Part shown: positions 6,030-11,227 of the stretch, piece by piece
How the letters are laid out: every line of letters starts with the position of its first letter
How positions within the stretch are numbered: position 1 is the stretch's first letter
Position numbers and translations under genes: made by a program
The notes under the pieces: generated by a model
The model's database searches: none
Told to the model about the DNA's origin: nothing
What the model saw: the letters and a program-made list of their open reading frames with translations, nothing else
Assembly: GCF_001484685.1 (NCBI RefSeq)
Contig: NZ_CP012200.1
Span: forward strand, 118,321-182,320
DNA from: Thermococcus sp. 2319x1
GTDB lineage: Archaea; Methanobacteriota_B; Thermococci; Thermococcales; Thermococcaceae
DNA length: 64,000 nucleotides
Direction of reading: 5' to 3'

Positions 6030-6113
6030 ATTATCTCTTTGAAGCTTGAAGCTTAAGTATTTATCTAATGAGAACGATTTAATATCTTGGAGTCAAACTT
6101 CTGTGGGGTAAAC

Positions 6114-6836
6114 ATGAAGAAGATACTTTACGCAATCCTAATAGCAGGATTTTTTGCAATACTCGGCTCTACCATGAGTAAATCTCCAACCTTGCCACTC
6201 TATGCTCAAAGTTTGGGGTTAAGCAGGGGAGAGATTGGAATTGTTGCGGCGGCATCAACTATAACGGGTATTTTTATGAACTTTGTCTCAGGGCTTTTGA
6301 GCGATATCTATGGGCGAAAAAAGCTTCTTAAAATAAGCGGCTTTGTATTCTTCTCTGCGCCCCTTCTTTACTTCTTTGCTAACAATGCTATAGCGTTAGC
6401 TTTGGTAAGGGCCTACTATGGGATAGCAACTGCTATATTTGTTCCTGTTTCCCTTGCTTTAATCAGTGACTTATATTCTGAAAAGAAAGGTACTTTTATG
6501 GGGATTTTAAGTTCTGCAACTCTCGTGGGGAGAGCCATTGCTCCGTTATTGGCAGGGAGCTTAATATATTTCGCAGGATTTTGGATTGTTTTTATTTTGT
6601 GTTCTTTCTTTGGATTTATTACCTTTGCAATAACTTTTACGTTACCTGAAGCAGAAGGAGAATTAGAGAAGTTTGAGTTTTCATTTAGTTCCACCCTCTT
6701 TCTTCTTGGTCTGTTGGATGCAGCTGTTTATATGGCTTATCAAAGTATTGAAACATTTTTACCTCTTTTCTACTTTCTTGAAGACAAAGCTTGTTAGGGT
6801 TTATTAAGTGGCTGTTTGCTAGCTATTCCAATCCTG
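6114..6836 (+). pseudogene. Truncated MFS transporter
   Basis: An N-terminal MFS half, starting at ATG 6114 behind GGGG. It has about six membrane helices and the signature loop GLLSDIYGRKKLLK near residue 60. The reading frame stops at a TAG at 6795-6797 (228 codons), whereas MFS proteins usually have about 400. Reading on in the same frame gives GLLSGCLLAIPILLFF, which looks like the next helix, so the TAG is probably a nonsense mutation. The homology then ends exactly where the minus-strand ABC gene begins at 6837. The remaining half of the transporter is not found on the far side of the island. Confidence 0.75.
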
Positions 6837-7739
6837 CTATTTTTCTAGGATTCCGGTGAATATTTTCTCTATAGGAGTCTCTTTTGGTTTCACTTCATAT
6901 ACATTAATCCCTTGGGTGAGCAATATCTTCATGATCGCTGGAACTTCATCATTATACCTTGAAACCATCACAGAAATTCCCGTGTTTTCCACGTTAACGT
7001 TATACCCAAACTTCTCTAAGAGTTCTTTTGCCCTTATTTTTTTATCAACTTTAAACACCACTTCAATGCTACTAACTTTACTTAGTAAATTCTCCAATCT
7101 TTCCTCCAAAACGAGCTTTCCCTCCTTCATTATTGCAACCCTGCATTTTACCCCCTCAAAATTCTGGAGCTCGCTTAGAATGTGGGTCGAAAACAGAATG
7201 ATTTTGCCTTCTTTCAGCATCTCAAAAATTTTGTCTCTTAAGCTTAAAGCTGTTGGAATGTCCAAATTGCTAAACGGTTCATCCAAAACTAGAATGTCTG
7301 GATTGTGAAGCAATGCTCTCGCTAAAGCGAGCCTCTTTCTAAAGCCTCTACTTAGATATCCGGCTTTTGTATTTTTGTATTTTTCAAGTCTAAATTCTTT
7401 TAGAAGTTCATTAATCCGTTCTTCTTCAACATCATAGATCTTGGCGAAAAATCGCAGATTCTTGTAGACCGTTAGATCTGGATAAACTCTCTCTCCCTCC
7501 GGCAGATACCCCATCTTTCTTTTAGCGTTTTCGGGTTCCACCCAAAGATCAATTCCATCAACTACGACCCTACCACTGGAAAGCGGCAAAATACCGGTGA
7601 TTGCTCTAAATGTTGTGGTTTTACCTGCACCATTGGCTCCCAATAATACATAAATTTCCTTTTTTATTGCGATAAAGCTTAGATTTTCTATAACATCGCC
7701 GTTACCATAACCTGCACTGATATTTTCGACCTCAAGCAT
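6837..7739 (-). CDS. ABC transporter ATP-binding protein of the RiPP-like operon
   Basis: A 300-residue ABC-2-type ATPase. Walker A GANGAGKTT is at 34-42, Walker B ILVLDEP at 149-155 and an H-loop in FSTHIL. The signature motif is degenerate, LSRGF (129-133) instead of LSGGQ. A C-terminal domain of about 90 residues follows, as in exporters of the BcrA/NatA type. It is the last gene of the seven-gene operon and starts at ATG 7739 behind GGGGTGA, 11 bases after the permease stop. Export of the modified peptide or self-immunity is the likely role; this is inference from context. Confidence 0.8.
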   Translation of the reverse strand: MLEVENISAGYGNGDVIENLSFIAIKKEIYVLLGANGAGKTTTFRAITGILPLSSGRVVVDGIDLWVEPENAKRKMGYLPEGERVYPDLTVYKNLRFFAKIYDVEEERINELLKEFRLEKYKNTKAGYLSRGFRKRLALARALLHNPDILVLDEPFSNLDIPTALSLRDKIFEMLKEGKIILFSTHILSELQNFEGVKCRVAIMKEGKLVLEERLENLLSKVSSIEVVFKVDKKIRAKELLEKFGYNVNVENTGISVMVSRYNDEVPAIMKILLTQGINVYEVKPKETPIEKIFTGILEK

Positions 7740-7750
7740 GAAATCACCCC

Positions 7751-8554
7751 TTAATTTGTAATGAATGCCAAGCGATTGATGACACGCTTGCCCAACATTG
7801 CTATTATTAGTGAAGCTACCAAAGAACAAATCCCCAGGAGCAGATATATCTGGAATGTTCTGTTTAACCCTAATTTTGCCGATGCAAAGGATATTATAAT
7901 TGGCGTCAAAACTAAAGGCAAGCTCATTAGGTTTATAAGCTCTGAGCTCTTTATTTTTACACTCACTACTAGTCCTGTGCTAATAGAGAACATCATCATT
8001 GAAAAAGGAACGAACACTGTGATGATAATGAAGTATAGTGTGGGATGCCATATACTTCCTAGTGCTTTTAGATGTAGATACTGGATGAGGAAGAAAAGAG
8101 ATGCAAAAGCAAAGCCCCATGAGAGCAAACTGAAGAACACTGTCGATAACAATTTCCCCAGGAGTATCTCGGATTCTGAAAGAGGAGATGAAAAAAGGAT
8201 TTCCATAGTTTTATTTAATTTCTCATTGAAAAAAGAGGAGACAATTGAAGCATAAGAACTCAAGGCAGATACTAATATTACAACTACCGATAATTGGGAT
8301 ATCAGGGCGGCAAATGTTATTGCATCTTCGCCCATTTTTGCTACTTCATTTTCAGAAAGTCCAAACACTAAAGGGCTCTCAGATATTTGCTCCATGGCAA
8401 GCTGTTTTGAATAGGATGTTAAGTACCTTGGTCCACTCACAATCAACAACATTCCAATAACAAGTATAATTACAGCATTTGCTAATAGTCCAGCCAACTG
8501 TTTGTTTGCAAAGTACTGCCAGACCTCTTTCATGAGTACTGGCTTAATTCCCAT
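7751..8554 (-). CDS. ABC-2 type permease of the RiPP-like operon
   Basis: A 267-residue membrane protein with six predicted helices (about 22-42, 85-108, 140-160, 170-195, 210-227, 235-257). A soluble loop between the first two helices and the segment SSFFNEKLNKTMEILFSSPLSESEILLGK are typical of ABC-2 exporters of the NatB/YhaP kind. Its ATG shares one base with the TAA of the upstream gene (TAATG). It would form the membrane half with the ATPase that follows, dimerising or pairing with itself because only one permease is encoded. Confidence 0.8.
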   Translation of the reverse strand: MGIKPVLMKEVWQYFANKQLAGLLANAVIILVIGMLLIVSGPRYLTSYSKQLAMEQISESPLVFGLSENEVAKMGEDAITFAALISQLSVVVILVSALSSYASIVSSFFNEKLNKTMEILFSSPLSESEILLGKLLSTVFFSLLSWGFAFASLFFLIQYLHLKALGSIWHPTLYFIIITVFVPFSMMMFSISTGLVVSVKIKSSELINLMSLPLVLTPIIISFASAKLGLNRTFQIYLLLGICSLVASLIIAMLGKRVINRLAFITN

Positions 8555-8991
8555 TATTTTCTCACCTCTATGACTTTTTCTTTTATGCTTTCGTCCAGTA
8601 TAGCATCTATAACCTCATGAATATTATCAAAAGCTAGGTAGTATCTTTTCCCGTCTGTGGCCTCTATGAGCAAGCCAGAATCTGAACTGGCATAGGAAAC
8701 TACCTCTCCATATTTACCTTTGTATTTGCCAATTCTATACCGGCCAAATTCTAGCCCCCCAAGTCTCCAGACAAGCACATCTCGGTAATCTTTAACTTGG
8801 AAATCTCTAACTCTAATTGGAACTGTTCTCCTTTTTGTTTTTATTACAAGAATTACTTGGTTGTTCTCATGTCGAATAATAACTGCATGGGGCACATATG
8901 CATCAAAAAAGCCATATTTTATGAGTGCAAGGACTAGCCCAACTATTCCTAATGTAATAAATAAGGACAACAAAATAGAATTATCCACCAT
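8554..8991 (-). CDS. Membrane-anchored PH-like domain protein in the RiPP-like operon
   Basis: About 145 residues: one N-terminal membrane helix (residues 4-24), a basic beta-rich stretch (VIIRHENNQVILVIKTKRR) and a C-terminal segment, RYRIGKYKGKYGEVVSYAS then GKRYYLAFDN and a closing helix. The C-terminal part resembles the bacterial PH-like fold (bPH_5 group) often seen in membrane proteins next to exporters. Assignment is by pattern only. A GTG at 9000 is an alternative start; ATG 8991 fits the GTGAG ribosome-like site better. In this operon it is a candidate immunity or exporter accessory protein. Confidence 0.5.
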   Translation of the reverse strand: MVDNSILLSLFITLGIVGLVLALIKYGFFDAYVPHAVIIRHENNQVILVIKTKRRTVPIRVRDFQVKDYRDVLVWRLGGLEFGRYRIGKYKGKYGEVVSYASSDSGLLIEATDGKRYYLAFDNIHEVIDAILDESIKEKVIEVRK

Positions 8992-9412
8992 TATTCTCAC
9001 GCTCTTTGTTGTTGTTTTGCATGATGTCCCTCAGTATATCTACGAAGTGGATATCGGTATTCTGCTTCTGGAGATATATAAATTCGTTGGTAAATAACCA
9101 TAATATGGCGTTTTTTAAGTCATTTTTTATTATCCTCCTTGGGGTTTCTGGATAGATAAGACACAGATGCGTGACAAGGTCTGAAAATTTTACACTCCCT
9201 TTTTTCTGGAGTATTTTTATGATCTCCCCCATGGTTGGATTCATCACGGTGATTTTCCATGTAATTGGATTAAATCCCACAACTCTCCCATCTCTCTCGA
9301 ATCTAAATTTTAAATTTTTGAGTAAGCTGATCATATATTTATCAGAGCTTACTTCAGTTAGCAAACCGTTAATATGCTTATCAATATTGGTTATCAAGCT
9401 ATTAGTTATCAT
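8981..9412 (-). CDS. PqqD-like RiPP recognition protein
   Basis: A 143-residue soluble protein. Residues about 36-115 follow the PqqD/RRE layout: a beta hairpin (FERDGRVVGFNPITWKITV), the common MNPT turn at 57-60, a helix (MGEIIKIL), then two more helices in the winged-helix part (SVKFSDLVTHLCLIYPE and KNAILWLFTNEFI). RREs bind the leader of a precursor peptide and hand it to the modifying enzyme. It overlaps the radical SAM gene as ATGA (9409-9412), as expected for a partner. The N- and C-terminal extensions are unlike free-standing PqqD, which is about 90 residues. Confidence 0.7.
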   Translation of the reverse strand: MITNSLITNIDKHINGLLTEVSSDKYMISLLKNLKFRFERDGRVVGFNPITWKITVMNPTMGEIIKILQKKGSVKFSDLVTHLCLIYPETPRRIIKNDLKNAILWLFTNEFIYLQKQNTDIHFVDILRDIMQNNNKERENNGG

Positions 9413-10593
9413 GTTGATAACACCTCCCTAATATTTCTTGCTAGAATGGACAAATCTTCTTCATTTAATTGTAATATATCCAAGTAATCTGAACCTATCC
9501 TTGTCATAAAGAGAGATTTCAACTTGAGGATATCTCTCTCAGTTTTTAGATAGGAGGATATTGATAAAAGCACAGGGTTATCTCTCCATGCATATTCCAA
9601 ACCTTCTTTCCATAGTTTTTCTATTCCATCTGAAACATGACCGTAAGCCAAACTCAAATATGGAGTGGGAAGAATATAACCTTCTGCACTTATTGAAAGG
9701 GAAATCAGTGAGACATATGGACCTATTATGATATGCTCTGTTGGATCGCCAAATTCAATTCTAGTGGAATACTCAAAACTATGTTCGAATATCCACGTTA
9801 TTAATTTCCTGTATTGATCATCAGTCGGCATTAGTTTCACATGTTCGAAGGTTTCAGGAACAAAATACATTGTGCGAACAGATAAAACCTCAAGTTTGTC
9901 ACATAACTCAACAGTTTCTGGAAAGTTATCTATATTTAGTTTTGTTGAACAGAAACTTACAATTGTTGGAATATTGTATTCGATCAGATTCTTTATTGCG
10001 TTGATAGCTCTGTTGTATGAACCTTTAGGTCTTAGTTTTTCCATAATCTCAGGTCTGGAGCCATCTAAAGATACTTGGACAGCGGCAATACCACTTTCAG
10101 CAAGTTTTGAAGCAAAGTTGTCGGATATTAATGAGCCATTAGTTACCATGTTAACATCGATCCCCCTTTCGTTAGCATATTGTATAATATCAAACAAATC
10201 CCTACGAAGTGTTGGCTCACCTCCACATAAACATAAGACCAGAACATTTAATTTCGCCAGTTCGTCTATGACATTAAATATCTCCTCTCTGCTGAGTTCT
10301 CTGCGAATTACATCTGGAGAACAACCAATGTAACAATAGGGACAATTGTAGTTACATCGATATGTAACATCGATTGCTGCAGAAACAGGGCCCTTTAGAT
10401 TTTCCGGCCAGATGCGATACTTACGATAAAGACTTCTAAGCTCGCTAAATATCTCTGGGATCTCTTTTAATTCCCCAGCCCTGTAAGGTACATTTGTACC
10501 AGTTGACATTTGAATAAATCTGCTGAGAATATTCGAAAAAGAATAATAAAACGTTTGAAGTTCATTTGATAGACTGCCAACACCCAGTCTCAT
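9409..10593 (-). CDS. Radical SAM peptide-modifying enzyme
   Basis: A 394-residue radical SAM protein. The cluster-binding motif CNYNCPYC has cysteines at 80, 84 and 87, GGEP follows near 133, and the barrel continues to about 290. The C-terminal part, EGYILPTPYLSLAYGHVSDG then IEKLW, has the outline of a SPASM/PqqE tail but the usual cysteine is threonine and no other SPASM cysteines are present. An N-terminal extension of about 70 residues precedes the barrel. The gene follows two small peptide genes by 12 bases and overlaps a PqqD-like gene, the classical setting of a RiPP maturase. Start ATG 10593 lies behind AGGTGA; an upstream GTG sits inside that site. Confidence 0.85.
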   Translation of the reverse strand: MRLGVGSLSNELQTFYYSFSNILSRFIQMSTGTNVPYRAGELKEIPEIFSELRSLYRKYRIWPENLKGPVSAAIDVTYRCNYNCPYCYIGCSPDVIRRELSREEIFNVIDELAKLNVLVLCLCGGEPTLRRDLFDIIQYANERGIDVNMVTNGSLISDNFASKLAESGIAAVQVSLDGSRPEIMEKLRPKGSYNRAINAIKNLIEYNIPTIVSFCSTKLNIDNFPETVELCDKLEVLSVRTMYFVPETFEHVKLMPTDDQYRKLITWIFEHSFEYSTRIEFGDPTEHIIIGPYVSLISLSISAEGYILPTPYLSLAYGHVSDGIEKLWKEGLEYAWRDNPVLLSISSYLKTERDILKLKSLFMTRIGSDYLDILQLNEEDLSILARNIREVLST

Positions 10594-10605
10594 TATCTTC
10601 ACCTT

Positions 10606-10866
10606 TTATGTCAAGTTTTTACTCAAGGTGCTATGCTGTATCTTTGGATCTCTAATTAGGGAAGCATTGCCATGTAAAAGCCACTTTGCTATCCATGCTG
10701 CTACTCCCCAAACAACTGCGACATACATTGCAGCAATAACCCATACTGCCGCAGCCGCCATAACCGTACCGCCAACATTTAATACATACGCATGGCTTAT
10801 TGCTATTTCTTTGGTAATTCCTGAAGTAATACCAACATCACCCCCAACAGGAGGCAAATAGCTCAT
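10606..10866 (-). CDS. Candidate RiPP precursor peptide B (86 aa)
   Basis: A short peptide starting at ATG 10866 behind a perfect GGAGGTGA. The N-terminus reads YLPPVGGDVG, matching YIPPIGEDLG in the gene before it. Residues 31-33 are VGG, followed by a strongly hydrophobic stretch (about 35-63) rich in Ala, Val and Trp (Trp42, 53, 58, 62) and a polar basic tail. There is no cysteine, so thioether sactipeptides and lanthionines are excluded. Its start overlaps the stop of the first peptide gene (ATGA) and the radical SAM gene follows 12 bases later. A small membrane protein unrelated to RiPPs is the alternative. Confidence 0.7.
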   Translation of the reverse strand: MSYLPPVGGDVGITSGITKEIAISHAYVLNVGGTVMAAAAVWVIAAMYVAVVWGVAAWIAKWLLHGNASLIRDPKIQHSTLSKNLT

Positions 10867-11033
10867 GCACTTTCACCTCCTGAGGTTTTGTCTTTTAACG
10901 GTAAGGACCAAATAACTACGAAAAGGACTGGCATAATCTGAGTGAATATTGGTCCTGGGCCACCGACTTCAACTACAACACTTCCAAGCCCGTGTCCAAG
11001 ATCCTCTCCGATGGGAGGGATATACTCTCCCAT
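10863..11033 (-). CDS. Candidate RiPP precursor peptide A (56 aa)
   Basis: A 56-residue peptide starting at ATG 11033 behind GGAGGGAG; a longer frame from 11063 lacks a ribosome site. The N-terminus EYIPPIGEDLG matches peptide B, and VGG occurs at 23-25 before a hydrophobic stretch (IFTQIMPVLFVVIWSLPL) and a polar tail. It has no cysteine, serine appears at 18, 43, 51 and 55, and glycine and proline are frequent. It is the first gene of the operon, just behind the promoter, where precursor genes usually lie. The shared head and differing hydrophobic tail suggest leader and core, but cleavage and modification are inferred. Confidence 0.7.
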   Translation of the reverse strand: MGEYIPPIGEDLGHGLGSVVVEVGGPGPIFTQIMPVLFVVIWSLPLKDKTSGGESA

Positions 11034-11078
11034 TAATACTCCCTCCAGTTTAACATTATGCATAATTTGATATGTTGC

Positions 11079-11097
11079 TATAAATATTTATTCTTTT
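11079..11097 (-). promoter_or_regulatory. Promoter of the RiPP-like operon
   Basis: On the minus strand the stretch reads GAAAAGAATAAATATTTATA, a good BRE plus TATA box. Transcription would begin near 11055, about 20 bases before the first precursor gene. The seven genes downstream have gaps of at most 12 bases or overlap, so this is the only evident promoter. Confidence 0.55.
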
Positions 11098-11227
11098 CGT
11101 AAACTCTAAGTTACCAACTTCAAGTTTCTAAATTTCTTAAAAAAAAGTAAGTCCTTAAAAAGCTCCTTCTTCTAGATTACAAATGAGTAACTATATAAAA
11201 CTTTGAATAGTAAATAAAAATTTAATT

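Follow-up and report, generated by a model that had tools for sequence, protein, structure and literature searches.

Seven head-to-tail genes of Thermococcus sp. 2319x1 likely encode a RiPP pathway in which modification is guided by an RRE protein, both the binding and the modification being inferred. It is probable, though with less assurance, that the set as a whole is a cassette for biosynthesis and export, in which the RRE presents the leader of each precursor, a radical SAM enzyme modifies the peptide and a membrane-active pair is exported. The discrete RRE would bind the YxxP leader (YxPPxGx[DE]xG) as the RREs of lasso peptide and PQQ systems do and would present the precursor to the enzyme, which would abstract hydrogen in the Cys-free hydrophobic core. 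The first choice for the chemistry, although rather unlikely when judged on its own, is C-alpha epimerisation with C121 of the enzyme as hydrogen donor. The ABC-2 transporter would export the peptide pair, the bPH-like protein would aid transport or self-protection, and the leader would be removed in trans, plausibly by chromosomal TldD/TldE. The product would most likely be a membrane-active antagonist of close relatives; this is favoured by little more than an even call, activity being inferred.

To our knowledge hyperthermophilic archaea have radical SAM RiPPs that have hardly been characterised at all, and the cassette offers a compact, testable set of two precursors, one apparently one-cluster enzyme and one RRE. 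A RiPP-like operon had been proposed here from the DNA letters alone, and this sequence-only reading is now supported by a shared YxxP-type leader, a lasso-RRE/PqqD fold with candidate contacts, syntenic relatives and a locus in an archaeon of another phylum (G246). No description of the system was found in the literature; since a survey of archaeal antimicrobial peptides that may list some of the loci (mBio 2019, e00715-19) lay outside the search, it is probable, but not proven, that this type of operon is undescribed, as had been suggested.

The operon and its putative precursors

The window, that is, the whole 64,000-nucleotide stretch analysed, comes from a genome consisting of one contig of 1.96 Mb. 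Between 6837 and 11033 on its minus strand, all seven open reading frames that had been claimed as one operon are present behind one promoter-like site, in the order pepA, pepB, radical SAM, RRE, bPH-like, ABC-2 permease and ATPase (Table 1). The junctions, too, are as claimed: ATGA overlaps join pepA to pepB and the radical SAM gene to the RRE gene, 12 bases separate pepB from the radical SAM gene and 11 bases the permease gene from the ATPase gene, and the bPH-like gene is joined to the permease gene by TAATG. The bPH-like gene also overlaps the RRE gene by 11 bases. The start of pepA at 11033 is supported by the GGAGGG and the BRE/TATA-like site upstream of it, and the region upstream of pepA resembles that of four related loci (L048, L066, L061 and L071). 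The seven genes are real: other Thermococcales carry them in the same order, and every dN/dS value that could be measured lies well under 1.

Table 1. Features of the seven-gene operon, in window coordinates and in order of transcription
Feature	Position	Strand	Product	Basis and remarks
BRE/TATA-like promoter element	11080..11099	minus		CGAAAAGAATAAATATTTAT; read directly, function inferred
Shine-Dalgarno-like GGAGGG of pepA	11041..11046	minus		read directly
pepA, putative precursor	10863..11033	minus	56 aa	MGEYIPPIGEDLG...; YxPP leader, hydrophobic core, no Cys
pepB, putative precursor	10606..10866	minus	86 aa	MSYLPPVGGDVG...; YxPP leader, Ala/Val-rich core, no Cys
Radical SAM enzyme	9409..10593	minus	394 aa	CxxxCxxC; cluster cysteines missing from the SPASM-like region; C121 invariant
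Discrete RRE	8981..9412	minus	143 aa	N58 and D98 invariant in the RRE family
bPH-like small membrane protein	8554..8991	minus	145 aa	Pfam bPH_5, 23.0 bits (cut-off 22.5)
ABC-2 type permease	7751..8554	minus	267 aa	Pfam ABC2_membrane_3, 34.2 bits (cut-off 31.6)
ABC transporter ATPase	6837..7739	minus	300 aa	Pfam ABC_tran, 102.9 bits

An MFS transporter gene (6087-6797, plus strand) ends early (FLEDKAC), immediately short of the operon's 3' end. The same protein in a relative (L068) runs on for more than 100 residues further, and the window copy therefore looks truncated by a deletion adjoining the cassette.

Both peptides start with the motif YxPPxG[EG][DE]xG, and in a comparison of cassette peptides the intact members of both kinds begin Y[ILV]PPxG[EG][DE]. 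The leader is about 12 residues long; in one copy (L074) the similarity between pepA and pepB reaches as far as TVW[NT]S. The leader DNA pattern occurs 13 times in 115 genomes, every time at cassettes or their remnants, and the reversed pattern, used as a control, gave no match in them. The window and 24 related loci together contain 2746 ORFs of 30-120 aa; 15 of them have YxPP within the first 15 residues, and 10 of these 15 are cassette peptides. Had homologues of the peptides been widespread without radical SAM or RRE genes, the RiPP-like reading would have been refuted; this is not seen, the leader pattern being confined to cassettes, and the peptide copies without a radical SAM gene (L048 in the window genome and L061 of G109) are decayed remnants. 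YxxP is one recognition sequence of lasso RREs (PMC12710340), and in the LPP system mutagenesis shows that its Tyr and Pro matter for RRE binding (PMC13381572). Judged by sequence, the shared leader motif matches this recognition sequence as bound by RREs of the lasso/PQQ type.

The cores contain Trp, Tyr and Asn, and both peptides have hydrophobic helix-like stretches. The absence of cysteine claimed for pepA and pepB was borne out and extends to every intact precursor examined. No aromatic motif is conserved among the peptides, neither pepA nor pepB has a Pfam match, and pepA has no match in the PDB.

The RRE protein and the radical SAM enzyme

The description of the fourth gene product as a PqqD-like RRE was weak for the window sequence alone, which gave E=0.11 and 13.3 bits against Pfam PqqD, below the cut-off of 23.4; this counts against the main proposal. 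It is the relatives, the profile comparison and the predicted fold that uphold it. PqqD matches were obtained for 4 of the 8 members of the RRE family (best E=3.7e-4), and in the profile comparison the family matched PqqD-type proteins at E=3.4e-6, with N58 and D98 aligned with their Asn and Asp. The model of the window protein (pLDDT 89.6) is predicted to have a wHTH fold of the RRE type; when it was used to search the PDB by fold, the leader-bound lasso RRE TbiB1 came top and PqqD next (E around 2e-3, probability 1.00), whereas a sequence search of the same database, made with the profile of the RRE family, gave no match. Asp and Asn residues in contact with the Tyr and Pro of the leader are reported (PMC13381572). 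N58, which closes the last strand of the sheet, and D98, in the third helix, are inferred from topology, without superposition, to sit where N33 and D70 of LppB contact Pro and Tyr. They are candidate YxxP-contact residues; there are no binding data, and binding is inferred.

The enzyme is a clear radical SAM protein (Pfam PF04055, 104.1 bits against a cut-off of 29.5) with an intact CxxxCxxC motif, in which C80, C84 and C87 are invariant. From Thermococcales through Collinsella there is no variation in GDPxxH, in PY or in C121, the last of which stands three residues ahead of GGE. The C-terminal half keeps a SPASM/twitch layout but the cluster ligands are gone (EGYILPTPYLSLAYGHV), with 0-2 C-terminal cysteines in this enzyme family against 3-11 in paralogues, and the SAM-binding cluster appears to be the enzyme's only one. 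The predicted structure (pLDDT 81) matches the folds of SkfB, SuiB, MoaA, PqqE and viperin. No model in Pfam, NCBIfam or PADLOC identifies the family: no NCBIfam model reached its cut-off, the best being the mycofactocin maturase (124 bits against 265), and the scores for PQQ, mycofactocin, WgkB, StsB and other NCBIfam maturase families all fell far below their curated cut-offs. Identity as a viperin, raised by PADLOC matches, was rejected as generic radical SAM similarity, against which the operon context also argues.

Proteusin epimerases combine one radical SAM cluster and one critical Cys with an RRE (PMC8326336), and C121 is a candidate active-site thiol, its role being inferred. It could, however, be structural, and L027/L028, outside the family, have a Cys in the same place, which weighs against the main proposal; against epimerisation itself stands the fact that no library match makes the epimerases recognisable homologues. 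Alternatively, the enzyme of the same RiPP cassette may install a C-C or C-O crosslink, or make another oxidative change, on Trp, Tyr or aliphatic side chains, as the Trp, Tyr and Asn of the cores and the presence of SuiB, SkfB and PqqE among the closest folds would allow. This remains a possibility short of being likely: known crosslinking and thioether enzymes require auxiliary SPASM clusters (PMC8326336), and crosslinking is made less likely by the loss of their ligands here, with no conserved aromatic motif across the peptides, while thioether chemistry is excluded because the precursors have no Cys.

It had been stated that no peptidase is encoded in the operon, and none is found among the seven genes, a point against the main proposal of a RiPP cassette. 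TldD/TldE removes the leader of microcin B17 (PMC5810440), and the window genome carries three chromosomal TldD/TldE gene pairs, so that leader removal in trans by one of these is plausible, though inferred. The ABC-2 transporter likely exports the peptides, export again being an inference, as is a role of the bPH-like protein in transport or immunity. This last protein was rejected as a hallmark of the system, because bPH_5-like proteins stand alone next to unrelated genes in many Thermococcales. The lone gene (L049, L050, L052, L056 and others) often lies between fibrillarin and HMG-CoA synthase genes.

Spread, decay and distant relatives of the cassette

A search for the same neighbours in other Thermococcales, proposed with the sequence-only reading, found the peptide/enzyme/RRE order again in 9 other genomes, where homologous enzymes lie in the same gene context, whole or decayed; any enzyme copy at all is present in 10 of the 94 family genomes. 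Those relatives of the locus that carry a name are Thermococcus MAGs. Complete cassettes were found in L066, L064, L067 and L070, the last having a divergent pepA; frameshifts occur in L054 and in pepB of L069, L065 and L071 are decayed, and L068 is cut by a contig end. A further complete copy (L074) is on a small contig labelled Thermotogota, whose standing as the true host is doubtful: the operon resembles those of Thermococcales and lies on one MAG contig of 4.4 kb, which is possibly mis-binned. No relatives were found in the viral_contigs set.

The window genome itself holds a second copy (L048, 6293-9877; G000:C1:1456000-1472000), in which pepA and the bPH, permease and ATPase genes remain but the enzyme gene and the greater part of the RRE gene are gone. 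Retention of the export genes after loss of the enzyme counts in favour of the main proposal, and a remnant of export and membrane genes is what would be expected, by inference, if these give immunity. This copy adjoins broken fragments of a thiazole-synthase-like (Thi4) gene, and related broken fragments flank the remnants in L065 and L071, which suggests a recurrent insertion site.

Pairwise NG86 estimates, made only where dS was measurable, gave dN/dS of 0.11-0.28 for pepA and 0.21-0.69 for pepB, that is, purifying selection wherever measurable. Adjacent cassette genes differ sharply in divergence. Between L066 and L048 the permease is nearly identical (dS 0.08) whereas dS is 0.92 for bPH and 0.61 for the ATPase; the stretch from bPH to ATPase is almost the same in the window and L068, against only 80-87% identity in the enzyme fragment and RRE; and between the window and L064 pepA and the ATPase are 83-85% identical and the genes in between 25-53%. 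Recombination between cassettes is the simplest reading of these sequence differences. Such mosaic inheritance supports the main proposal and suggests peptide-based antagonism among vent Thermococcales. It is improbable that the cassette instead makes a peptide-derived cofactor or signal, like PQQ or mycofactocin: the mycofactocin maturase is the best NCBIfam similarity, though far below cut-off, and PQQ clusters have discrete RREs, but patchy spread, decay and recombination, long hydrophobic cores, a dedicated exporter and the absence of downstream redox genes all argue against this.

Beyond Thermococcales, the archaeon G246 encodes a homologous enzyme (L086; C-terminal match E=1.5e-12), together with an RRE-rSAM fusion, a PqqD protein above the cut-off (44 bits) and TldD- and TldE-like peptidases. 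Five tandem small ORFs lie just upstream of the enzyme/RRE genes, all with YxPP (starts MSGYTPPAML, MRTYTPPALL, MRAYSPPTML, MERRAYAPPAML and MERKYVPPALM); four have short hydrophobic cores rich in Val, Ala, Ile and Trp, and the fifth may be frameshifted. With the YxPP ORFs, RRE-rSAM, rSAM, PqqD, TldD and TldE, L086 4751-11607 is a separate candidate RiPP cluster. No second relative was found in the class of G246. Collinsella aerofaciens encodes in a row a PqqD protein, a Cys-poor homologous enzyme (30%) and a 60-aa peptide (MYETPEVEKMDSKTGPVPVVVNFAAVVDNVVAAVYDAVVAAYAFWY...) with YxxP and a Val/Ala/Asn-rich composition. The peptide gene is L136 8493-8675 (NZ_OY725717.1); the annotated start (8520) is placed too far downstream and so cuts off the leader, although the upstream ATG is preceded by an AAGGAGA site.

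Other PqqD genes were noted apart from these. One (1918964) lies beside radical SAM matches in the window genome (G000:C1:1917861-1919730; L003, L007), possibly a second, unrelated RiPP-like locus, and G020 and G021 (same class, family f5) have 10 and 8 PqqD-domain matches. Several of these adjoin radical SAM genes or are fused to them, and both genomes appear to be rich in RiPP-like loci.

That pepA and pepB stay unmodified and act as bacteriocin-like two-peptide toxins, or as small membrane proteins, the enzyme and RRE serving something elsewhere, is very unlikely, since, for all the hydrophobic helix-like stretches, the dedicated exporter and a second copy that keeps pepA and exporter without the enzyme, two otherwise different peptides have an RRE-type leader in common, found only at cassettes and matching the RRE, the same association occurs in a distant archaeon and in Collinsella, and the enzyme-less copies are decayed.

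The RiPP reading might extend to a class shared by hyperthermophilic archaea, another archaeal phylum and Actinomycetota: a lasso-type YxxP/RRE module would hand Cys-free, aliphatic-rich peptides to a radical SAM enzyme whose SPASM clusters are gone, and the enzyme, perhaps epimerising them via C121, would give exported membrane-active products; this is a tentative generalisation. If it is true, archaea would make a peptide antagonist that bears D-amino acids or is radical-modified in some other way. The cassette combines a lasso-like YxxP leader and RRE with a radical SAM enzyme in archaea, and a gut Actinomycete has this type of enzyme next to YxxP peptides. This opens the questions of how recognition elements are swapped among RiPP classes and of what chemistry a SPASM-degenerate enzyme performs, both open to direct test with heat-stable proteins.

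Comparison with known systems

The operon is made up like a radical SAM/RRE RiPP cassette but fits no known class; it lacks defining features of lasso peptides, sactipeptides, ranthipeptides, lanthipeptides, proteusins and daptides and reaches none of the NCBIfam maturase cut-offs. The core Cys of sactipeptides, ranthipeptides and lanthipeptides is absent from every intact precursor examined. Daptide clusters encode an aminotransferase, a decarboxylating oxidoreductase, a methyltransferase and an M50 protease, and no such domains occur among the seven proteins.

Two-peptide class IIb bacteriocins likewise combine paired hydrophobic peptides, an exporter and a small membrane protein in one operon and have a patchy, mosaic distribution, but here a radical SAM enzyme and an RRE are added and no C39 peptidase was found in the operon. 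Epipeptides (YydF/EpeX with EpeE) share the radical SAM enzyme, ABC-2 type export and a Cys-free hydrophobic target, whereas EpeE carries a second cluster and lacks an RRE partner, and leader and enzyme differ (see also PMC8326336). The enzyme has the radical SAM core and C-terminal twitch-like layout of the SPASM-type maturases PqqE, MftC, SkfB and SuiB, but lacks their auxiliary-cluster cysteines and meets no NCBIfam cut-off.

The proteusin epimerases PoyD and OspD, which the enzyme may resemble, have a single cluster, an RRE, a conserved unique Cys and Cys-free cores rich in aliphatic residues and Asn (PMC8326336); the traits found in the operon are the missing auxiliary ligands, the adjacent RRE and the invariant C121, the role of which is inferred. 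The operon differs in its separate RRE, in an enzyme closer to SPASM-type maturases and in a leader of about 12 residues in place of the long nitrile-hydratase-like leader of proteusins, and epimerisation is inferred.

The lasso (TbiA-TbiB1, FusA-FusB1) and LPP (LppA-LppB) systems differ in other respects: neither an Asn-synthetase-like lasso cyclase nor a B2 leader peptidase is found among the seven proteins, the sole strong Asn_synthase match of the window genome being about 1.16 Mb from the operon, and there is a radical SAM enzyme instead, with a leader of some 12 residues and an archaeal host. They are alike in the N-terminal YxxP leader and the discrete wHTH RRE, for which the best fold match is to TbiB1-leader complexes, with Asn and Asp at the expected sites.
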